DNA of 29,823 bases, from positions 1 through 29,823 of the IMG/VR virus record IMGVR_UViG_3300037137_002469, one strand, 5' to 3'. This DNA comes from a virus. The notes beneath the pieces were generated by a model. It worked only from the letters and a program-made list of their open reading frames with translations, was not told the origin of the DNA and did not search any database. Below, piece by piece: positions 1 to 18,646 of the stretch (position 1 is the first letter of the stretch; each line of letters begins with the position of its first letter). The position numbers were made by a program, and so were the translations under genes.

Positions 1-36
1 CTCGGCGAGCAACTCGCGCCGCTCGTCTCGGATCAC
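1..36 (-). CDS. 5' end of a gene running off the left edge
   Basis: A GTG codon at 36-34 overlaps the TGA of the preceding gene (GTGA), the junction used throughout this genome. The twelve visible codons read VIRDERRELLAE and stay open to the window edge. The product is unknown. Support is the coupling pattern only. Confidence 0.5.
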   Translation of the reverse strand, partial: MIRDERRELLAE

Positions 37-203
37 GCGCCACGCCCCCTCTCGACGGCCGCGGCCACCGCCAGCGCCATCTCCGACTCCGGGTGGTTCT
101 CGACCAGGTGCGGGACGATGCTCTCGCCGTACCTGGAGTCGTCGGGGTAGTACTGCCCGCACTCCGGGCACTGCCACGCGTCCACCATCTCGAGCTCCCT
201 CAT
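33..203 (-). CDS. Small C2H2-type zinc-finger-like protein
   Basis: 56 residues starting with MRELEMVDAW. A CPECG knuckle at residues 12-16 is followed by HLVENH near residues 32-37, giving a C-x2-C...H-x4-H set that could bind one zinc ion. The rest is an Ala/Val-rich helix and a short basic tail. The ATG at 203 overlaps the TGA of the upstream gene (ATGA), which decides the start over a longer in-frame start. Small fingers of this kind are common in actinophage early regions and may bind DNA or host proteins. That role is inference. Confidence 0.65.
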   Translation of the reverse strand: MRELEMVDAWQCPECGQYYPDDSRYGESIVPHLVENHPESEMALAVAAAVERGRGA

Positions 204-631
204 CGTGCCCACCCCTTCCTCATCGCCTCGCGCTGCCGAATCCAGTCGCACAGAATGTCCTCGTCCGCAGCGCTCAGATCCATGACTGCGGCCTTCACGC
301 TCCCGACCGTCGCGGGACGAACGAGGGCGCTCAAGTGAGCGCGGGAGAGGGCACGCACTGCCTCGTCGAGCGCCGTGTTCAAGATCGAGAACGCTGCCTT
401 CAGGTCGGCGTTCTCCGCGGCGAGAGCTTCCAACCCTGACCGCTGCGGCGGCGCGTCGGCCTCGGCAGGCTCACTCATGGGCTGGACTCCAGCTCGTGCT
501 TCGTCTCGTTCCTGTTCGGCTTGGGCGAGGCGGGCGACGAGGCGGTCGAGGGCCGCCCAGTGATAGTCCGGGTCCAGCGTGTCCTCTAGCCCGCTTCTGA
601 TGATGTCCTCGTCGGTTCGTTCGTGGGTCAT
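200..631 (-). CDS. Hypothetical helical protein
   Basis: 143 residues beginning MTHERTDED. The ATG at 631 follows a good ribosome site (AGAGGAG, then six bases); an in-frame GTG at 751 is rejected because it lacks such a site and gives an Arg-rich, unlikely N-terminus. Two heptad-like stretches, around residues 28-45 and 65-95, suggest a coiled coil. The C-terminus ends in a compact DWIRQREAMRKGW helix. No family is recognised. It overlaps the downstream finger gene by ATGA. Confidence 0.65.
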   Translation of the reverse strand: MTHERTDEDIIRSGLEDTLDPDYHWAALDRLVARLAQAEQERDEARAGVQPMSEPAEADAPPQRSGLEALAAENADLKAAFSILNTALDEAVRALSRAHLSALVRPATVGSVKAAVMDLSAADEDILCDWIRQREAMRKGWAR

Positions 632-3879: not shown

Positions 3880-4040
3880 CGTGCGCCGGCCTTCGCGTAC
3901 ATGTCCTGCTGGTGGCTGCAGTGCTTCTCGCCCTTGCAGAGTGCCGCGCACTCGTCGTCGCATGGGCCACAGTTCGTGGTGGGGGTGCCTGGGTGGCCCT
4001 GGCTGCAGTAGTACTTGGCCTTCCGTGTCTCGGTCTTCAT
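3876..4040 (-). CDS. Cys/His-rich small protein
   Basis: 54 residues from ATG 4040, which has AGAGGAG seven bases upstream. Six Cys and several His (C12, H16, C24, C27, C31, C35, H40, C41, H43) in about 30 residues suggest one or two bound metal ions. An in-frame start at 4067 would add MSKSERSTE and lies six bases after the -10 box GATAAT, so a leaderless start is possible. It is the first gene behind promoter copy 2. Confidence 0.6.
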   Translation of the reverse strand: MKTETRKAKYYCSQGHPGTPTTNCGPCDDECAALCKGEKHCSHQQDMYAKAGAR

Positions 4041-4067
4041 CTCCGTGCTCCTCTCGCTCTTGCTCAT

Positions 4068-4138
4068 GCCTTTATTATCGGCCATGGCGGGGGAGGAGCA
4101 TACCGGTCGAAGGGCTAGTTCTTGGTCCAGGCCGAAGG
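4068..4138 (-). promoter_or_regulatory. Candidate phage promoter, copy 2, with tandem box
   Basis: CCTTCGACCGGT (4113-4102), 22 bases, GATAAT (4079-4074), AAAGGC, then ATG at 4067. A second box, CCTTCGGCCT (4138-4129), lies 25 bases further upstream. The region after the -10 is identical to copy 1 for about 30 bases. The tandem boxes look like operator or activator sites. Confidence 0.6.
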
Positions 4139-9573: not shown

Positions 9574-10431
9574 CTACAGCGCCCTGCTCAGGCCCTTTGC
9601 GGACCGCCACTCCCTGACCTCGATGGCCAGCTGCGCAGCCTTCAGGCCGCGCACGATGTCGAGCTCGTGCAGCTCGCACCGCGCTTCTCCGGCGGGCACG
9701 TGGATGATGACCGCCGCCTTCTTGTCGACGGTCGGCATCTTCTCCAGCCGCTCCGTCTTCGGGTCCCAGTAGTGCGACGCGTTCGCGTACATCGCCTGCT
9801 GGACCGAGTGATCCAGCTCGGAGAAGTGGACAGTGCCGCCCGTCTTGATGTCGCAGACACGGGGCAGCTCCCAGTCCGGGGCGGTGTTCACCCTGTCGAG
9901 GGTCCCGGCGACGCCGAGCGCCGTGTTCACGACTATGCGCTCGATCCACTGCGCGCCGCTCTCGTCCAGCAGCGGCAGTATCTCGCGCTTGTCCATCTCT
10001 GCGCCGTACTTCTCGATGTCCCTGTCGTACGGGGCGGGCACGTCCCACTGCTCGCCCCGGTCCATCATCTCCGTCGCGGCGTGGAGTGCTGTCCCAAGGT
10101 TGGCGCGCTGCTCTGTGTTGCCCGCCTCGATCGCGTCCTTGACGACGCGGTTCAGCGTCCTCTTGCCGTTGGGCGTCTTAGACTTGCGCGCGTTGGTCTT
10201 GACCAGTGCCAGCAGGTCCTCGCGCCGCGCTAGCCCGAGCGCCACCATGCGCTGCGCCCAGAGCTCGAGGTTGTACCTGTCGCTCAGGATGCCGCTGACG
10301 GTGGTGACGCGGGTCCACGCGCGCTCGACGCCGGTCGCCGGGTCGGGCAGCAGGTACCGGCCCCACCTGTCTCTTCGCGGCTCGTTCGGCGCCTGGTCGA
10401 AGTGCTGGTCGTCCGTGTCCTGGTCCGTCAC
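9574..10431 (-). CDS. Cas4/RecB-like PD-(D/E)XK nuclease
   Basis: 285 residues from GTG 10431 (GTGA overlap). The motifs follow RecB-family order: GTALH (113-117), GTLD (176-179), DIKTG (194-198, D194 and K196) and QQAMY (211-215). The family degrades dsDNA ends in recombination or host-DNA breakdown. No 4Fe-4S cluster Cys set is seen, so it resembles phage RecB-like exonucleases more than true Cas4. It sits between nucleotide-pool enzymes and replication proteins. Confidence 0.85.
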   Translation of the reverse strand: MTDQDTDDQHFDQAPNEPRRDRWGRYLLPDPATGVERAWTRVTTVSGILSDRYNLELWAQRMVALGLARREDLLALVKTNARKSKTPNGKRTLNRVVKDAIEAGNTEQRANLGTALHAATEMMDRGEQWDVPAPYDRDIEKYGAEMDKREILPLLDESGAQWIERIVVNTALGVAGTLDRVNTAPDWELPRVCDIKTGGTVHFSELDHSVQQAMYANASHYWDPKTERLEKMPTVDKKAAVIIHVPAGEARCELHELDIVRGLKAAQLAIEVREWRSAKGLSRAL

Positions 10432-10778
10432 TCGTCGTCCCCCTTGTCGAGGAGGTGCTGCCTGTCATCGACGCCCAGCGACTCGAGCTCCTTCTCGAGC
10501 AGCATCATCGTGTCGCAGACGACGTGCGCCAGGTGCGGCATCCCGGTCTCGGGATCTGTGTCCTCGCCCTGCCACCACGCGGACAGGTGCCGCATCGTCG
10601 CCGCGAATAGGCGCGACTGCGCGAGCCCCTGGTAGTTGCGCTCGCTGTACTTCTGCGCGCCGAAGGCGAACACCTCGGCCGCCGCGTCGACCGCGGCCCA
10701 GGGAATCAGATCCATCCTGCGCTTGCCGCCGTCGTCCTTCGCGCCGCCAGCCTTGTCGTAGACGAAGCTGCTGTCCAT
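10428..10778 (-). CDS. dATP/dGTP diphosphohydrolase-like protein (DUF5664)
   Basis: 116 residues from ATG 10778 (TGATG overlap; AGAGGAG upstream). DDGGKRRMDLIPWAAV, FGAQKYSERNYQ, RHLSAWWQGEDTD and HLAHVVCD reproduce the pattern of the DUF5664 / dGTP diphosphohydrolase N-terminal family, a MazG-type all-alpha fold common in phages. Members hydrolyse purine dNTPs; one branch (MazZ) works in Z-genome phages, but no PurZ is present here, so that role is not claimed. It is coupled to the HAD gene upstream and the nuclease downstream. Confidence 0.8.
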   Translation of the reverse strand: MDSSFVYDKAGGAKDDGGKRRMDLIPWAAVDAAAEVFAFGAQKYSERNYQGLAQSRLFAATMRHLSAWWQGEDTDPETGMPHLAHVVCDTMMLLEKELESLGVDDRQHLLDKGDDE

Positions 10779-11353
10779 CACCGTGCTCCTCTCGCCCTTA
10801 CGGCTCGCTCTACTTCTGCCCATGTCTCGACTCGTTGGATTATCCTACCGGATGCCAGTGACGCGCGGGGCAGCTCACCACGGTTCCAGGGCTGGTCCCA
10901 TACCAGCACGTCTCCGAAGGCGTTGTCGACCAGGTCCTCGACGTTCTCGAGCGAGTCGTCTAGGTAGATGTCGCAGTCCACGGACGACTTCGGTGTCGCC
11001 TCGTTCAGCAGGTGCGCCTCCTTGATGGGCCAGCTCCGCGCGCCGAGCCAGCTGAGTCGGTCGCATATCCCGCCGGGCGGGACCTTCGAGACGACGACCA
11101 CGCGCGCGATCGCGCAGAGGCGCGTCACCGCGACCGCTGCGCCGGGGTAGGCGTCGGCGTGGCGGAACATCCCGCCCTCGACGCCTTCGGTCCAGAGCCA
11201 GGCCCAGTGCTCCGGCGCGACCAGTCTCTTGGCGTGGTCCCACCGCTCCCACGGACCTACCTCGTACCCGAAGTGCTCGCGGAGCAGGTCGTTCACGCAC
11301 GTGACCCAGTCCACCACCACGCCGTCCAGGTCCAGACCCAGTCGCGGCCTCAC
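10778..11353 (-). CDS. HAD-family 5'(3')-deoxyribonucleotidase-like phosphatase
   Basis: 191 residues from GTG 11353 (GTGA overlap). LDLDGVVVDW gives the nucleophile Asp8 and Asp10; VVVVSKVPP near the middle supplies motif II; DIYLDDSLENVEDL gives the acidic motif IV. The size and layout match HAD nucleotidases of the NT5C type, which dephosphorylate deoxynucleoside monophosphates. With the MazG-like, DUF5664 and TS-like proteins it probably reshapes the dNTP pool. Substrate is not predictable from sequence. Confidence 0.8.
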   Translation of the reverse strand: MRPRLGLDLDGVVVDWVTCVNDLLREHFGYEVGPWERWDHAKRLVAPEHWAWLWTEGVEGGMFRHADAYPGAAVAVTRLCAIARVVVVSKVPPGGICDRLSWLGARSWPIKEAHLLNEATPKSSVDCDIYLDDSLENVEDLVDNAFGDVLVWDQPWNRGELPRASLASGRIIQRVETWAEVERAVRARGAR

Positions 11354-11986: not shown

Positions 11987-12159
11987 TGGTACTCCGTCAC
12001 CCGGCGCACCCGACCCGTGTGCTTCGGAACCTTCCGCCACTCTGAGTCGAGCGCCTCTTCGATCTCGAACTCGGCCTGCTTGACCGCGTCCATCTCGGAC
12101 GAGCCGGACACGCGCATGCGCAGCACGACCTCGACTTCGTACTCGTTGAGTAGTCCCAT
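11983..12159 (-). CDS. Hypothetical 58-residue protein
   Basis: Starts at ATG 12159 (TGATG overlap with the TS-like gene; AAGGAGAG upstream) and ends in an ATGA overlap. The pattern EYEVEVVLRMRVSG, a helix AVKQAEFEIEEALD, then a basic strand-rich end suggests a small alpha/beta fold. Function unknown. Confidence 0.6.
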   Translation of the reverse strand: MGLLNEYEVEVVLRMRVSGSSEMDAVKQAEFEIEEALDSEWRKVPKHTGRVRRVTEYQ

Positions 12160-13043
12160 CAGCTCTCCTTCCTCGGCCCGCAGTGGTGGTGGATGTACCA
12201 GGCCTCGCTCTCGTCCTCGGAGTACACCAGCTCGAGGTCAGCGATCGCCCGCGCCCGCGCCGATGCCACGCCGAACGGGAGACCGGCCGCGCCGACGCCC
12301 GTGGCGAGCGGCGCCTTCGGTGCACCGGCGGCGGTCAGCGACAGGTGGAGTGCCGCGTCCCAGTGCGGCTCGTAGACGTGCAGCGACGCGGCGTGGTGGT
12401 AGTAGGTCCCGACCGGAACGTCCAGCGACCTCGCCAGTGTGTGCTGGAGTTGGTTGAACACGAAGGCGTCGTACGCGAGCCCGTGCCACGCGTCGTTGGA
12501 CCTCATCGTCACGTGCAGGTCGAGTGACAGCCTGTCACGACCCAGCCTGTCACGGTCCACGCGCCTGAGCATGAACTGGAGCTGCGTCGTGCAGGGGTAG
12601 TTCTTGACGCCCTCGATGGAGTCGCGCAGCGGGTCCCACACCGAGACGACCGCGCGCCGGGAGTACGGGTCCTCGCGCAGCCTGCGCTCTGCCGTCTCCA
12701 TCTGTGCACGCACTCTCGGGCCGTAGGCACCGTGGAACGCGCCCTGGTCCGCGAAGTCGCGCAGGTGCCCGTTGACGCGGAACAGTGCCTCTGCGTCGCT
12801 GTACCCGCCAATCAGCTGGAGCGCCTCCTCGGCGGCCAGCGCCTGGCTCACTCCGCGACCTGCGCCGACGGGCAGCATGGGCGCGCCACCCGGGATGACG
12901 AGCGTAGCGCCGAGCACCTCTGTCGTCTCGAGTCCCCGCGGCGCAGCGTGCTCGCCGAAGGTCATAACCGTCTGCACCGTGGTGACGTACCCGCCGACGA
13001 AGTCGTCGAGGCGCAGCAGCAACCCCTGGTTCGGCCTGGTCAT
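12159..13043 (-). CDS. Thymidylate synthase homologue with Asn-to-Asp switch (dCMP-type)
   Basis: 294 residues from ATG 13043 (GAGGGAGG upstream). It aligns with ThyA-type enzymes: SRRAVVSVWDP (128-138), YPCTTQLQF (149-157; Cys151 nucleophile), RSND (181-184) and LHVYEPH (221-227; His222, Tyr224). Eleven residues after Arg181, where E. coli TS has Asn177, this protein has Asp192 (GLAYD for GLPFN). In T4 dCMP hydroxymethylase this residue is Asp, and Asn-to-Asp in L. casei TS turns it toward dCMP. The enzyme is therefore predicted to add a methyl or hydroxymethyl group to C5 of dCMP. Chemistry, cofactor and product are inference. The 5' leader holds an inverted repeat that can hide its ribosome site. 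Confidence 0.85.
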   Translation of the reverse strand: MTRPNQGLLLRLDDFVGGYVTTVQTVMTFGEHAAPRGLETTEVLGATLVIPGGAPMLPVGAGRGVSQALAAEEALQLIGGYSDAEALFRVNGHLRDFADQGAFHGAYGPRVRAQMETAERRLREDPYSRRAVVSVWDPLRDSIEGVKNYPCTTQLQFMLRRVDRDRLGRDRLSLDLHVTMRSNDAWHGLAYDAFVFNQLQHTLARSLDVPVGTYYHHAASLHVYEPHWDAALHLSLTAAGAPKAPLATGVGAAGLPFGVASARARAIADLELVYSEDESEAWYIHHHCGPRKES

Positions 13044-13051
13044 GTTCGTAC

Positions 13052-13108
13052 CTCCCTCTCGTTGGGAAGTGAAGCCGGGCCCGCCGCGCGACGGGCGGCG
13101 AGAGGGAG
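13052..13108 (-). promoter_or_regulatory. Inverted repeat that can mask the TS-like gene's ribosome site
   Basis: A perfect 10-base inverted repeat, CTCCCTCTCG (13108-13099 on the minus strand is its upstream arm) and CGAGAGGGAG (13061-13052), has the ribosome site of the TS-like gene in the downstream arm. Between the arms a second stem (CCGCC/GGCGG) can form. The pairing would sequester GAGGGAGG eight bases before the ATG. Confidence 0.5.
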
Positions 13109-13114
13109 TGGGGT

Positions 13115-13133
13115 GACGACGTATGGCGTCGTC
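13115..13133 (-). other. Short hairpin in the TS-like leader
   Basis: GACGACG and CGTCGTC flank five bases, a perfect 7-bp stem, between the DUF932 stop and the inverted repeat at 13052-13108. No U-run follows, so it is not a clear terminator; it may be part of a folded leader. The rest of 13044-13179 shows no gene. Confidence 0.4.
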
Positions 13134-13179
13134 TTCCACCCTCGCGCGACGGTCCGGCTCCAGTCTCTTCCAGAGCGTA

Positions 13180-14115: not shown

Positions 14116-14220
14116 CTGCTTCTCCCTTCGTCGTCTCGCGGCGCTCTCGGCCGCGCGCGTAGTTGCTGCCCCAGTACGTCCTGCCGTGCTCGACGCCCTC
14201 CTCGCGAAGTACCTCAGCTG
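14099..14220 (-). pseudogene. Possible 3' remnant of a gene cut by the duplication
   Basis: From the edge of the duplicated segment a frame reads AEVLREEGVEHGRTYWGSN and on to a basic end, stopping at a TGA inside the DUF932 start. The text is protein-like, yet no ATG, GTG or TTG opens it, and upstream it merges into an out-of-frame reading of the duplicate. It may be the C-terminal end of a gene whose front was replaced. Chance is possible. Confidence 0.3.
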
Positions 14221-14411
14221 TCGCCGGAGACCAGGTCGCCGCCCAGCGGCAGGACGATCCCGTCGTACTCCACGCCCGCTAGGCGCTCGAAGAACATCCT
14301 GGTCCTCTTCTCCGCGATGGCCAGGTCGTACGCGTTGTACCCGCCGAGCTCGCCCGGCTGGACGACCTCGCCGAAGTGCGCGTCCGAGAAGAAGGCGACC
14401 AGGGCGCTCAC
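14214..14411 (-). CDS. Truncated metallophosphoesterase copy (65 residues)
   Basis: GTG 14411 overlaps the upstream TGA (GTGA) and opens SALVAFFSDAHFGEV, continuing to GGDLVSGDS and a stop. It matches residues 88-156 of the full-length enzyme at 17540-18646 exactly, minus eight residues (TITVARHY). Motifs I (D10, H12) and II (GGD) are present, but GNH and the two His motifs are missing, so catalysis is unlikely. It may be decaying or serve as a separate fragment. Confidence 0.6.
   Translation of the reverse strand: MSALVAFFSDAHFGEVVQPGELGGYNAYDLAIAEKRTRMFFERLAGVEYDGIVLPLGGDLVSGDS
14219..14402. repeat. Partial direct duplication, copy A (184 nt)
   Basis: Identical base for base to 18178-18242 plus 18267-18385; the 24 bases at 18243-18266 are missing here, at the junction after 14283. 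Same orientation as copy B, about 4 kb away. Perfect identity implies a very recent duplication, ongoing gene conversion, or an assembly artefact. Confidence 0.9.
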
Positions 14412-14662: not shown

Positions 14663-15618
14663 GCGTCGACCCCTTCCCACATCATGTCCTCGTCCCCGTC
14701 CCAGAGCAGTGCGCGCCCGTGCTCGGTGTGGCTCTCCACGTCGACGCCGTGCAGAATCCACATGTGGTCCACATGGTCTTCACGCTCGTCGAACAGGATG
14801 CCGCACCTGAAGCACTTCCAGCTCGAGAGCACGGGCGAGCTCCAGGTCTGGAGCCTGTCGCGCCGCACCTTCGGCTTGGCCTTCGGCTTGGGGCTAGGCT
14901 GGCGTATGGCCTTCGCCTGTGCAGGCTTAGCAGCAGGCCGCGCCGGCGCGGGAAGGCCCGCGCTCTTGGCTGCTGCCGCGACGAACAGGTCGAAGATCTC
15001 CTGCGAGCCGGGGCCGCGGTGCATCTCCGGGTGGAACTGGACGCCCATCATCCAGCCCTCGACCGACTCGATGCACTCCACGACGCCGTCGCTGGCCCAG
15101 CCCGTCGCGACGAAGCCCGGCGCCACCTTGTTCACTGCCTGGTGGTGGAGGTGAAGCGTCTCGCGCTCCCTGCCGCCGAAGGCCTTGGCCAGGCGCGAGC
15201 CTTTGGCGGGCCTGACGCCTCGCGTGTGGTTGGAGTGCGGGCCCGAGCCCTTGAGCGCCGGGACGTGCTGGTGCAGCGTGCCACCGCACCCGGCGTTTAG
15301 CATCTGCGCGCCGCGGCAGATCCCCAGAATAGGGATGCCCGCCTTGACGGCCGCCTGCAGCGCCAGGAGCTCGGCCAGGTCGCGCTCTACCCACGCGTCG
15401 CCGGTCGCGGCGTGCGGCTTGGCGCCGTAGAGGTTCGGGCTGATGTCGCTGCCGCCCGTCAGGAGCAGCGCGTCGACCTTGCCTGCAGCGATCGCCTTGT
15501 GCGCCGAGTCGTCGCTGGTGCTCACCTTCACGGGCGTTCCGCCAGCCCGCACTATCTGCGCGTCGACGTGGCCCATGACGAGCACCCGTGCCCGCTTGAC
15601 CTTCACCTTAGCCGTCAT
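14659..15618 (-). CDS. Class-I glutamine amidotransferase (peptidase C26) fused to a zinc finger
   Basis: 319 residues from ATG 15618 (ATGA overlap). Residues 10-220 match the PuuD-like class-I amidotransferase / gamma-glutamyl hydrolase fold: LLLTGGSDISP (51-61), GICRGAQMLN (99-108, nucleophile Cys101) and GVQFHPEM (192-199, His196 and Glu198). A Lys/Pro/Ala linker (about 222-252) leads to CFRC...DHVDHMWILH, a C2H2-like finger (C269, C272, H285, H290). The first domain may release ammonia from glutamine or cleave gamma-glutamyl bonds. Known amidoligase operons often include such a partner. The finger tail is unusual and suggests nucleic-acid or protein targeting. Confidence 0.88.
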   Translation of the reverse strand: MTAKVKVKRARVLVMGHVDAQIVRAGGTPVKVSTSDDSAHKAIAAGKVDALLLTGGSDISPNLYGAKPHAATGDAWVERDLAELLALQAAVKAGIPILGICRGAQMLNAGCGGTLHQHVPALKGSGPHSNHTRGVRPAKGSRLAKAFGGRERETLHLHHQAVNKVAPGFVATGWASDGVVECIESVEGWMMGVQFHPEMHRGPGSQEIFDLFVAAAAKSAGLPAPARPAAKPAQAKAIRQPSPKPKAKPKVRRDRLQTWSSPVLSSWKCFRCGILFDEREDHVDHMWILHGVDVESHTEHGRALLWDGDEDMMWEGVDA

Positions 15619-15863
15619 CGTCCTGCCTCCTCGTCCACTACCCTGGCCATGCCCGCATCTTCCAGCTCCGCGAAGAGCCGCCTGCTACTGCCCTCCGTGT
15701 GGAGCGCGCTCTCCGACCAGTTCCATGCCCGCTGCGCCAGCTCCTCTCGGAACGATCCCTTGTCGGGAGAGTTGTTCCAGGAGTCCTCGCGCAGTGCCTG
15801 CTCCAGCTCCCTCCACGTCGCGGCGGAGAGAACGGCGCCGTCTGCGAAGATCACCGTCGCCAT
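15615..15863 (-). CDS. Hypothetical protein between amidoligase and amidotransferase
   Basis: 82 residues from ATG 15863, one base after the amidoligase stop; its own stop overlaps the amidotransferase start (ATGA). MATVIFADGAVLSAATW suggests two short strands, followed by a helical, Trp-containing middle. The position between the two enzymes suggests a helper or small substrate protein. No family recognised. Confidence 0.6.
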   Translation of the reverse strand: MATVIFADGAVLSAATWRELEQALREDSWNNSPDKGSFREELAQRAWNWSESALHTEGSSRRLFAELEDAGMARVVDEEAGR

Positions 15864-15864
15864 C

Positions 15865-16830
15865 TCAGCTCACCTCTTCCAGGACCGAGGTCGCCGCGTC
15901 CATCTGGGACTGCAGGCTCTCGATGCGCGCCGCGACCGTCGCCCGCGTCTCGCCGCTCGTCTCGAACCTGAGCAGCCAGCTCGCATCCGTCGTCGTCAAG
16001 CCGAAGGGCTCGAGGTCGACGAGCATCTGGGTGAGGTCGGTGCCGCTGACCGTCGCGCTTGCGAGAGCCGCTGCGAAGAGCGCCTGGCCGAAGTGAATCC
16101 ACGCGCGGATCTTGTTGAAGTTCGTCGTCCCGGCGTGGCACCGCATCTCGACGCTGCCGTGGCGCGGGTAGGCGTGGAGGTTGATGTTGCCGCGCGGTCC
16201 GACCGAGCCGATCTCGCGGAGGTTGCGTGCCCTCAGCAGTGCACTCACCTGGTTGGACGCCCAGCCGCCGCAGTAGTGGTTGTCCCGGCGGCTCGGTGCG
16301 ACCATCCGCCACACGAGGTCCTGACGCTCGACGAAGGCGACGACCTGGGTGCGGATCTGGTCGACGTCCATGTTTCGCATGTCGTGGTGGACGTGGAGGC
16401 CTGCGCTGCTGTCGACCGTCGCTCCAACGGAGTTGAGCGCCGCGCACACCGTCTCCAGCTGGCGGAGTCCCGCCTCGCCGCGGAGCTTGGGGCTGACCAG
16501 CTCGAGGTGCTCGCCGCGAACGGAGCTGTCGTACTTGAGCTCCCACTTCGATCCGTTGGTGCTCGCGTAGGCGTAGCGGTCGACGACGTCGATGCCCGCC
16601 TGCAGCAGCGCGCTCATCACCAGGCGACGGTCCGGGCCTGTCATCTCAAGCTCTACGCCGAAGGCGCGACCTTGAGCGGTGCCAGCGTCGCGGCGCTGCG
16701 TGCCGTTCGTGCGGTTGTAGCGGAGGCGGTAGCACGGCTTGCAGTAGTTCACGAAGCGGCCGCCGCTCATGTAGAAGTGTGCGCGATCCTCCGGGAGGCT
16801 CTGTCCGCATCCCCTGCAAGTTCTCCTCAT
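15865..16830 (-). CDS. Amidoligase (Amidoligase_2 family) with N-terminal zinc ribbon
   Basis: 321 residues from ATG 16830, behind GAAGGAG and coupled by ATGA to a short upstream reading frame. Residues 5-33 form a ribbon (CRGC...CKPC). From residue 57 the text follows the COOH-NH2 ligase family related to glutamine synthetase: FGVELEM (57-63), HLELVSPKLRG (108-118), SSAGLHVHHD (141-150), NINLHAYPRHGSVEMRCHAGT (broken across 215-235) and an IRAWIHFGQAL helix. These supply the Glu, His and Arg residues that bind ATP-Mg. Family members join a carboxylate to an amine; in phages the substrates are not known. The amidotransferase two genes on fits the neighbourhood described for this family. Confidence 0.85.
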   Translation of the reverse strand: MRRTCRGCGQSLPEDRAHFYMSGGRFVNYCKPCYRLRYNRTNGTQRRDAGTAQGRAFGVELEMTGPDRRLVMSALLQAGIDVVDRYAYASTNGSKWELKYDSSVRGEHLELVSPKLRGEAGLRQLETVCAALNSVGATVDSSAGLHVHHDMRNMDVDQIRTQVVAFVERQDLVWRMVAPSRRDNHYCGGWASNQVSALLRARNLREIGSVGPRGNINLHAYPRHGSVEMRCHAGTTNFNKIRAWIHFGQALFAAALASATVSGTDLTQMLVDLEPFGLTTTDASWLLRFETSGETRATVAARIESLQSQMDAATSVLEEVS

Positions 16831-17346: not shown

Positions 17347-17546
17347 GCCCCCTCCTCCTTGACGAAGATGATGCCCTGACCCGCGCAGGCCGGGCAGCTG
17401 TACAGCCGCATCGTCGACGCGACCCACTCCCGCTGGTCTCCCGCGACCCATGGCGGCTTCTGCGTCGTGCCGTGGCCGCCGCAGACTGGGCAGGTCGTGA
17501 GGCGCTGCCCCGACTGCGGCCAGGACGTGGGCGCTATGGTCACCAT
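17343..17546 (-). CDS. Small protein with two DnaJ-type CxxCxGxG motifs
   Basis: 67 residues from ATG 17546 (a GTG at 17543 is an alternative and would give a GTGA overlap). CPVCGGHG (19-26) and CPACAGQG (51-58) match the repeat unit of the DnaJ Cys-rich zinc domain, so one zinc ion is probably bound by the four Cys. No J domain is present. Such small free-standing proteins occur in phages without known function. Confidence 0.65.
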   Translation of the reverse strand: MVTIAPTSWPQSGQRLTTCPVCGGHGTTQKPPWVAGDQREWVASTMRLYSCPACAGQGIIFVKEEGA

Positions 17547-18646
17547 CCCTCCTCGGACCGCTTCGTGCAGATGACGGGCGCCGTCACGGTGATCCCGTGC
17601 TCCGGCGTCACGACCATCAACGCCTGCTGCGCCGGCTCTGGCGCGAACTGTCCGTCTGACGCGTACTCGTCGTACCCCTTCAGCGAGCCGTTCATGACGA
17701 AGCCCTGCGTGTACGCGGGGATGAACTGGTGGAAGTGACCGTACAGCCCGTACCTGAACTGTCGACCCATCTCCTGGCGCTTCTTGGTCTTGCGCAGGTT
17801 GCCCCGCTTGACCGGCCCGAACGATCCGATCTCGCTCGTCCCGTTGAACCTGAGGTTGTCGCCGTGCTCCATCGAGAAGACGTGGCCGTAGACATCGAAG
17901 TCCACGTCCGTCGACTCGGGGATGTCGAAGGTGACCGCCTGCTCGTCTCGCAGCGTCACGGCCAGCAGCCGCGCGACGTGCGTGTCCGCGTTGTTCTCGG
18001 ACCGCTTCTTGTGGCGCGGCTTCTTGGAGTTGCGCCCGTGGTTGCCCGGCGCGCTGACGACGTGGACCCGCCCGAACTCCTCCGCGAGCATCTCGATACC
18101 GGCCTGCAGCCACGGCAGGCACGTCTCTACGGTCCTGAGCGTCGACTGCTCGTTGGTCTCGATCAGCTCGTCGTGGATGTCGCCGGAGACCAGGTCGCCG
18201 CCCAGCGGCAGGACGATCCCGTCGTACTCCACGCCCGCTAGGTAGTGGCGGGCGACGGTGATGGTGCGCTCGAAGAACATCCTGGTCCTCTTCTCCGCGA
18301 TGGCCAGGTCGTACGCGTTGTACCCGCCGAGCTCGCCCGGCTGGACGACCTCGCCGAAGTGCGCGTCCGAGAAGAAGGCGACCAGAGTGCCGTGGTGCTG
18401 CCCGTCGTCCCTGACCTCGCCGAGCCACTCCGGCCTGTCAGAGAAGTCCCGCCTGTACAGCGCCAGCTCGGTTGCCAGCTCGTCGGCCTCGGCAGTCGAG
18501 TCGCGAAGCTGCCGCGCCACGCTGTCCTTGTCTCGCTTGGCAGAGTTGGCCAGCTCCCTGAGCCTGAAGTTCTGCTCCCTCAGCTGCTGCTCGGTCGCCG
18601 CCGCGCCCAGCTCCTCGATAGCCTTGCCGAAGTCTCCCTGTACCAT
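17540..18646 (-). CDS. Calcineurin-like metallophosphoesterase with coiled-coil N-terminus
   Basis: 368 residues from ATG 18646, directly after the upstream stop. Residues 1-75 are a charged coiled-coil-like region. The phosphoesterase domain shows D94-A-H96, GGD (149-151), GNH (201-203), H261 and GHFH (303-306), the complete two-metal site. Relatives include Mre11/SbcD-like DNA nucleases and other phosphatases; the substrate is not evident. Part of the gene (18178-18385) is duplicated at 14219-14402. Confidence 0.88.
   Translation of the reverse strand: MVQGDFGKAIEELGAAATEQQLREQNFRLRELANSAKRDKDSVARQLRDSTAEADELATELALYRRDFSDRPEWLGEVRDDGQHHGTLVAFFSDAHFGEVVQPGELGGYNAYDLAIAEKRTRMFFERTITVARHYLAGVEYDGIVLPLGGDLVSGDIHDELIETNEQSTLRTVETCLPWLQAGIEMLAEEFGRVHVVSAPGNHGRNSKKPRHKKRSENNADTHVARLLAVTLRDEQAVTFDIPESTDVDFDVYGHVFSMEHGDNLRFNGTSEIGSFGPVKRGNLRKTKKRQEMGRQFRYGLYGHFHQFIPAYTQGFVMNGSLKGYDEYASDGQFAPEPAQQALMVVTPEHGITVTAPVICTKRSEEGW
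18178..18385. repeat. Partial direct duplication, copy B, inside the phosphoesterase gene
   Basis: Source-like copy of the 184-nt repeat. It encodes the first two phosphoesterase motifs and contains 24 extra bases (18243-18266) absent from copy A. Confidence 0.9.

Follow-up and report, generated by a model that had tools for sequence, protein, structure and literature searches.

The literature that we found on phage amidoligases (ALs) holds predicted roles only and no measured substrate. In cassettes of the Zobellviridae type (Pseudomonas O4/PA11, RIO-1/PSA-HP1-like), an AL is clustered with a COOH-NH2 ligase, an ATP-grasp enzyme, a class-II GATase, a C26 protein, and a gamma-glutamylcyclotransferase (GGCT). 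Modification of the cell wall has been proposed for these Zobellviridae-like ligase clusters (PMC5498523, PMC10580990, PMC11318856). The Arthrobacter phages Salgado, Ottawa, and Kovu carry a different set of genes, in which an AL is accompanied by a class-II (Ntn) GATase and a GGCT. Two further systems invite comparison. The gamma-glutamyl-polyamine pathway of PuuA/PuuD and SpuA combines a ligase of the glutamine synthetase (GS) fold with a C26 hydrolase, and the Pup-PafA-Dop system combines a ligase of the GS superfamily with a small protein partner (PMC3511204).

The locus analyzed here consists of an AL, an 82-aa protein, and a C26 protein, and it has features in common with each of these systems. 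We refer to the 82-aa protein and its relatives as ASP, for amidoligase small partner, a name given here. AL and C26 are clustered as they are in the Zobellviridae-type cassettes, but the latter have several extra ligases, an AL from a distant branch, no ASP, and a C26 protein without zinc modules. The Arthrobacter phages share with the locus the AL clade, ASP (gp67 in Ottawa; in Salgado, an ORF that spans the cos junction), and amide-acting accessory enzymes. They differ from it in having the class-II GATase and GGCT where the locus has C26, and an HTH-like N terminus on AL where the locus has a zinc ribbon; their ASP is either unannotated or listed as hypothetical. The ligase and hydrolase chemistry of the PuuA/PuuD/SpuA pathway is shared, but that pathway has no counterpart of the zinc modules or of ASP, and the AL of the locus belongs to another family of the GS superfamily. 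The locus and the Pup system are alike in that a small protein accompanies a ligase of the GS superfamily, although ASP, unlike Pup, is predicted to be folded and is without a conserved C-terminal Gln/Glu. The AL-ASP unit and the zinc-bearing triad to which it belongs are a variant form among the phage amidoligase cassettes already known.

Layout and enzymes of the cassette

The window, by which we mean the whole 29.8-kb virus record that was analyzed (~69% G+C, probably a fragment), contains Caudoviricetes tail and replication genes and, on its minus strand, the gene order AL, ASP, C26 (Table 1). A sequence-only reading of this DNA had described an Amidoligase_2 protein with an N-terminal zinc ribbon, an 82-residue protein, and a C26 protein that carries a C2H2-like finger and extends to 14659, and we found all of these elements in place. 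The interval given for the cassette in that reading, 15615-16830, takes in AL and the small protein and leaves C26 (14659-15618) outside. ASP starts 2 bp after AL, and at both junctions the stop and start codons touch or overlap, so that AL, ASP, and C26 are translationally coupled. The 82-aa ORF has a coding-like GC3 of 0.82.

Table 1. Positions of the cassette genes and of their domains, motifs, and junctions in the window
Feature	Coordinates	Strand	Evidence
Amidoligase (AL), 321 aa; ATG at 16830, stop ends at 15865	15865-16830	-	Pfam PF12224
Amidoligase_2 domain of AL, residues 54-251	16078-16671	-	Pfam PF12224, E = 4e-29
N-terminal zinc ribbon of AL, C5-x2-C8-x21-C30-x2-C33	16732-16818	-	Sequence motif
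ASP, 82 aa; predicted beta-beta-alpha-alpha-alpha-beta	15615-15863	-	Profile match and position after AL
C26 gamma-glutamyl hydrolase-like protein, 319 aa	14659-15618	-	Pfam PF07722, E = 1.4e-48
C-terminal C2H2-like finger of C26, residues 269-290, C269-x2-C272-x12-H285-x4-H290	14749-14814	-	Sequence
Junction of AL stop and ASP start, TGAGATG	15861-15867	-	Sequence
Overlap of ASP stop and C26 start, ATGA	15615-15618	-	Sequence

The cassette is bordered by a 208-nt direct repeat (88% identity) at 14219-14402 and 18178-18385, of which the copy at 14219-14402 is a partial copy of the exonuclease gene (17540-18646) that lies upstream of AL. Since these repeats stand on both sides of the AL-ASP-C26 segment, the segment may have been acquired or duplicated in one piece. 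A second direct repeat, of 49 nt (94%), is found at 2374-2422 and 4036-4084 and overlaps two small ORFs in their N-terminal parts. It probably sits just upstream of the true start codons of both and may be a repeated promoter or ribosome-binding leader.

AL matches the Amidoligase_2 family with a score of 102.7 bits (curated cutoff, 22), and an alignment of 54 ALs shows no variation at residues E60, E62, H146, H148, R181, N217, E228, R230, and H232, as the sequence-only reading would have it for the Glu, His, and Arg residues of the active site. AL was modeled in one chain with ASP by means of a read-through code, and in Foldseek comparisons this model resembled glutamine synthetases, YbdK, and gamma-glutamyl-methylamide synthetase, with E values as low as 4e-5. 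GS-type chemistry is assigned to AL by family, and the enzyme very probably forms amides in an ATP-dependent manner. Scans of IMG/VR with single AL, C26, or Ottawa gp67 sequences gave no matches; a scan with the AL alignment in place of a single sequence recovered relatives.

The C26 protein scores 166 bits against Peptidase_C26 (cutoff, 20.5), and its catalytic triad of C101, H196, and E198 is intact and invariant among relatives. Its nearest solved structures are Lin1909 (3fij), a SpuA-type protein (7d4r), and PuuD (6vtv), all of which belong to groups that cleave gamma-glutamyl amides. Neither AL nor C26 was placed in a different fold from the one anticipated for it. Given what the closest relatives of C26 cleave, the word "amidotransferase" in its designation as a class-I amidotransferase is probably wrong. 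The protein is better described as a probable PuuD/SpuA-like gamma-glutamyl hydrolase than as an ammonia-transferring amidotransferase, a description that applies at the family level only, as its score is below the equivalog level of PuuD (NF008471, 53.5 bits; cutoff, 266). The closeness of C26 to the SpuA-type and PuuD hydrolases, together with the GS-like AL, would also suit a pair of the PuuA/PuuD kind that gamma-glutamylates polyamines or other amines, sets them free again, and, for example, tunes free polyamines during DNA packaging; gamma-glutamylpolyamine synthetases of the GlnA2/GlnA3 type are known from actinobacteria (PMC5403932, PMC8998196). Such a pathway would leave the zinc ribbon or HTH of AL, the finger of C26, and an obligatory partner of 80 aa unexplained, and we consider it improbable.

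The ASP family

Single-sequence searches with the 82-aa protein found no relatives, and tblastn against phages gave nothing credible, so that the protein seemed to be an orphan until profiles were used. Look-alike small ORFs adjoin AL genes in a Porphyromonas phage and two gut contigs. In dozens of loci, an HMM seeded only with these ORFs and run on the 8251 ORFs of 126 loci picked out the ORF immediately after AL. The window protein was among those recovered (E = 3e-4), and after iteration it matched with E = 3.5e-19. With the iterated HMM, ASP is found downstream of AL in 103 of 121 AL loci; several of the loci without a match are cut by a contig end. ASP is always on the same strand as AL, which it either overlaps or follows at no more than about 1.05 kb; where the gap is long, a GATase gene or another small gene lies in between. 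Elsewhere among the 8251 ORFs, the next match to the profile had an E value of 0.017, and none was below 0.01. When 194 whole genomes of one order were considered, strong ASP matches occurred in nine, in every case beside AL (hypergeometric P = 1.3e-11). Pairwise distances among ALs and among ASPs are correlated (Mantel r = 0.56; permutation maximum, 0.12). In the Arthrobacter phage Salgado (KU160664; locus L127), ASP spans the two ends of the linear record at the cos junction (E = 1e-20); the annotated gene is a 44-aa ORF that stops at the junction. The AL loci examined come from at least eight phyla, and those in host genomes belong to Bacteroidota, Balneolota, Verrucomicrobiota, Thermodesulfobacteriota, Spirochaetota, Bacillota, Cyanobacteriota, and Pseudomonadota. 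By its profile, ASP is a conserved family that includes the 82-aa protein of the window, and AL and ASP almost certainly form the core two-gene unit of these cassettes.

The unit occurs in different genomic settings. In Porphyromonas phages (L005, L014), it lies inside the late module, between the portal/adaptor and neck/tail genes, and in the Arthrobacter phages it lies near replication genes. ASP genes without an adjacent AL are present at 1501-1725 of L139 and 1501-1731 of L156, in both cases in a genome with an AL-ASP pair elsewhere, and one of these two orphans is downstream of a MazG-type gene. No credible Pfam or NCBIfam model for ASP was found and PADLOC likewise had no match, while two members of the family match a single PHROG, which has no assigned function. 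The newness of ASP is judged from databases and from papers that cite the foundational study of Iyer et al. 2009.

An AF2 model of ASP based on 64 relatives has the order of secondary structure given in Table 1, with a pLDDT of 88 and a pTM of 0.76. Comparisons with the PDB by fold and by sequence returned no neighbor, and the viral structure models that share the fold are uncharacterized proteins only. Arg45 is conserved best and is near-invariant (96%); position 67, with Leu or Met, ranks second. Lys does not exceed 24% in any column, nor does an acid exceed 71%, and the C terminus is variable, with E or Q as the last residue in 14 of 90 proteins and EAGR as the ending of the window ASP. The sequence-only reading had named the small protein as a possible helper or substrate, and this was the right place to look. 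One near-invariant Arg, together with the lack of a conserved Lys and of a conserved C-terminal acid, favors a helper or adaptor over a covalently modified substrate; the pattern is more suggestive of a binding partner than of a tag like Pup or of a substrate modified at one fixed acceptor. In a model of AL and ASP as a fused chain (pTM, 0.63), the mutual placement of the two is not confident.

The same data bear on whether AL could conjugate ASP itself, as a tag or substrate, in the way that PafA conjugates Pup, with C26 or GGCT as the deconjugase. AL belongs to the GS-like ligase superfamily, as does PafA (PMC3511204), the pairing of AL with ASP is strict, and orphan ASP copies exist in two genomes that also have the pair, all of which count in favor of such a modifier. 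Pup is disordered, whereas ASP is confidently modeled as folded, few ASPs end in Glu or Gln, no Lys is conserved and no acid column is high, and the residue that is conserved best is an Arg. We regard a modifier role as very unlikely, and the folded model and variable C terminus led us to disfavor a Pup-like identity for ASP.

Accessory enzymes, appendages, and the target

GGCT, class-II GATase, and C26 proteins all act on gamma-glutamyl amides. The commonest accessory near AL-ASP is GGCT (AIG2-like), in about 40 loci; a class-II GATase is present in about 16 loci of actinophages, usually between AL and ASP; and C26 is present in the window, L032, and L065 (3 of about 120 loci), as well as in L169 and L170. 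Within 3.5 kb, no accessory enzyme was recognized in about half of the AL+ASP loci. The three enzymes are interchangeable neighbors of a fixed AL+ASP pair, so the pairing of AL with a class-I amidotransferase put forward by the sequence-only reading gives way to one in which C26 is one of three alternatives. The presence of class-II GATase domains in the C26 slot of relatives would agree with a glutaminase role for C26, in which it feeds ammonia to AL for the synthesis of a primary amide, as in MurT/GatD. The closest relatives of C26 are hydrolases, however, and not ammonia-channeling subunits, GGCT cannot supply ammonia, and half of the loci have no such enzyme, which makes this route quite improbable. 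We also rejected the idea that the cassette is a known anti-phage defense system, as no PADLOC model matched AL, ASP, C26, GGCT, GATase, or DUF932.

From the side of C26, an AL is adjacent in 56 of 80 phage C26 loci. Apart from L169, L170, and L171, these loci have the distant AL branch without ASP and are Zobellviridae-like ligase clusters. For cassettes of the phiEco32, RIO-1, PSA-HP1, PA11, and tf type, which combine AL, GATase/C26, GGCT, ATP-grasp, and COOH-NH2 ligase, the published proposal is one of wall modification (PMC5498523, PMC10580990, PMC11318856). Applied to the window, it would have AL add an amino acid or amide to a peptidoglycan precursor and C26 or GGCT trim wall peptides, with superinfection blocked as a result. 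The ALs of those cassettes form a separate branch without ASP, however, whereas the AL clade of the window has HTH and zinc appendages. No ATP-grasp or COOH-NH2 ligase family was found in the window proteins scanned (the smallest ORFs partly included), and no second ligase was seen beside the cassette. Finally, AL, ASP, and C26 of the window contain no hydrophobic or signal-like segment that could serve for export or membrane insertion. A role at the cell wall is for these reasons unlikely.

The zinc modules of the window recur together elsewhere. The triad in L169 has a ribbon (CPRC-x21-CVTC), ASP, and a C26 protein with CPHC-x12-H-x4-H; that in L170 has C-x2-H-x22-CDQC, ASP, and a C26 protein with CPVC-x12-H-x4-H; and that in L065/L171 has a ribbon (CRHC-x25-CREC), GGCT, ASP, and a C26 protein with a homologous but degenerate finger that is missing the last ligand. 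L169 and L170 are unrelated contigs, and the recurrence in them of the gene order and both zinc modules is more than chance. The AL ribbon is also present in L067 and L088, which brings the ALs with ribbons to six overall, and it has a weak PHROG match to the ribbons of endonuclease VII. Support in the AL tree is too low to decide whether the ribbon had a single origin. In the window, the C26 finger is joined through a K/P/A-rich linker, and a small ORF at 33-251 (minus strand) has a finger-like CPEC...H...H motif that stands alone, in the style of the C26 tail. Other ALs carry N-terminal matches to HTH families (HTH_23 in 9 of 54, plus several others), and in 4 of 54 the C terminus has a DUF3489 domain (best E = 4.5e-15). 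The repeated fusion of ALs to domains of the nucleic-acid type suggests a nucleic-acid-associated target for the ASP-type AL clade. Zinc and nucleic-acid binding are predicted for these modules, and the ribbon may alternatively mediate protein contacts. The sequence-only reading had taken the zinc appendages as pointing to a macromolecular target; their retention in three other triads (one with the degenerate finger) and the HTH and DUF3489 domains fit that view.

Two more genes on the minus strand of the window are of interest. The protein encoded at 12159-13139 belongs to the thymidylate synthase (TS) family and has Asp at the position of the thymidylate synthase Asn ('MRSNDAWHGLAYDAF'), a cytosine-type signature also present in the TS-family protein of the L062 record (L251). 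It is probably a dCMP-type hydroxymethylase or methylase, and the window phage may carry modified cytosine. The gene at 10428-10823 encodes a dATP/dGTP pyrophosphohydrolase-like protein (Pfam dGTP_diPhyd_N, E = 1.8e-32; PHROG 801), of a family known from phages with altered nucleotide pools. The cassette could then provide an amide-forming step on a modified cytosine of virion DNA, aided by the TS-family enzyme. That enzyme has CMP 5-hydroxymethylase MilA as its nearest relative (E = 6.5e-15) and Asp in place of Asn ('GLAYDAF'), the pyrophosphohydrolase gene is nearby, and AL has zinc or HTH appendages. A TS-family gene is present, however, in only 4 of the 38 other AL-ASP records (several of which are fragments), and no kinase, aminotransferase, or glycosyltransferase of base modification was recognized in the window. 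DNA hypermodification is accordingly a doubtful explanation.

A proposed mechanism

The reading that we prefer, tentatively and as something short of probable, is one in which AL and ASP gamma-glutamylate (amidate) a nucleic-acid-associated target, ASP provides specificity, and C26 is the eraser. AL would activate a carboxylate with ATP, which by analogy with the family would be the gamma-carboxyl of glutamate, and would join it to an amine on the target, either a nucleoprotein or DNA. ASP would be a non-covalent specificity subunit of the ligase. C26 would hydrolyze the gamma-glutamyl amide and so make the mark reversible, and the AL ribbon and the C26 finger would dock both enzymes on the same nucleoprotein target. 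The class of chemistry carried out by the cassette is well supported; glutamate as the acid, the class of target, and the roles of ASP as a subunit and of C26 as an eraser are what we infer.

Several observations count in favor of this proposal. The GS/YbdK fold match and invariant residues of AL agree with the ligase step, and the intact triad of C26, with its nearest relatives among the gamma-glutamyl(-polyamine/GABA) hydrolases, agrees with the reverse step, as does the shared specificity of GGCT, class-II GATase, and C26. We also count the linkage of AL to ASP (across loci, in Salgado, by co-occurrence in genomes, and by distance correlation), the nucleic-acid-type appendages of ALs and the zinc triads in L169, L170, and L065/L171, the lack of hydrophobic or signal-like segments in the window proteins, and the pattern of conservation in ASP. 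Against the proposal, we count the roughly half of AL+ASP loci in which no eraser is recognizable within 3.5 kb, the missing ligand in the C26 finger of L065/L171, and the fused AL-ASP model, in which the relative placement is not settled.

On a broader reading, which strikes us as improbable, AL-ASP would be a conjugation system of two components, widespread in phages and mobile elements and so far unrecognized. A GS-fold ligase would act on nucleic-acid-bound proteins or DNA, ASP would be its adaptor, carrier, or tag, and C26, GGCT, and Ntn-GATase would be erasers that swap for one another. Such a system would be a functional analogue of Pup-PafA-Dop tagging in which both the fold and the small protein are new.

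Our analysis corrects the picture of an amidoligase and amidotransferase pair: AL stays paired with ASP, and it is the enzymes that cleave amides that can be exchanged. For the ASP-type clade, the DNA-binding-type domains found on ALs of different lineages speak for a target associated with nucleic acids and against the cell wall. The presence of the ASP family across at least eight phyla provides a handle on the target of AL, that is, on what the AL-ASP complex binds and amidates.
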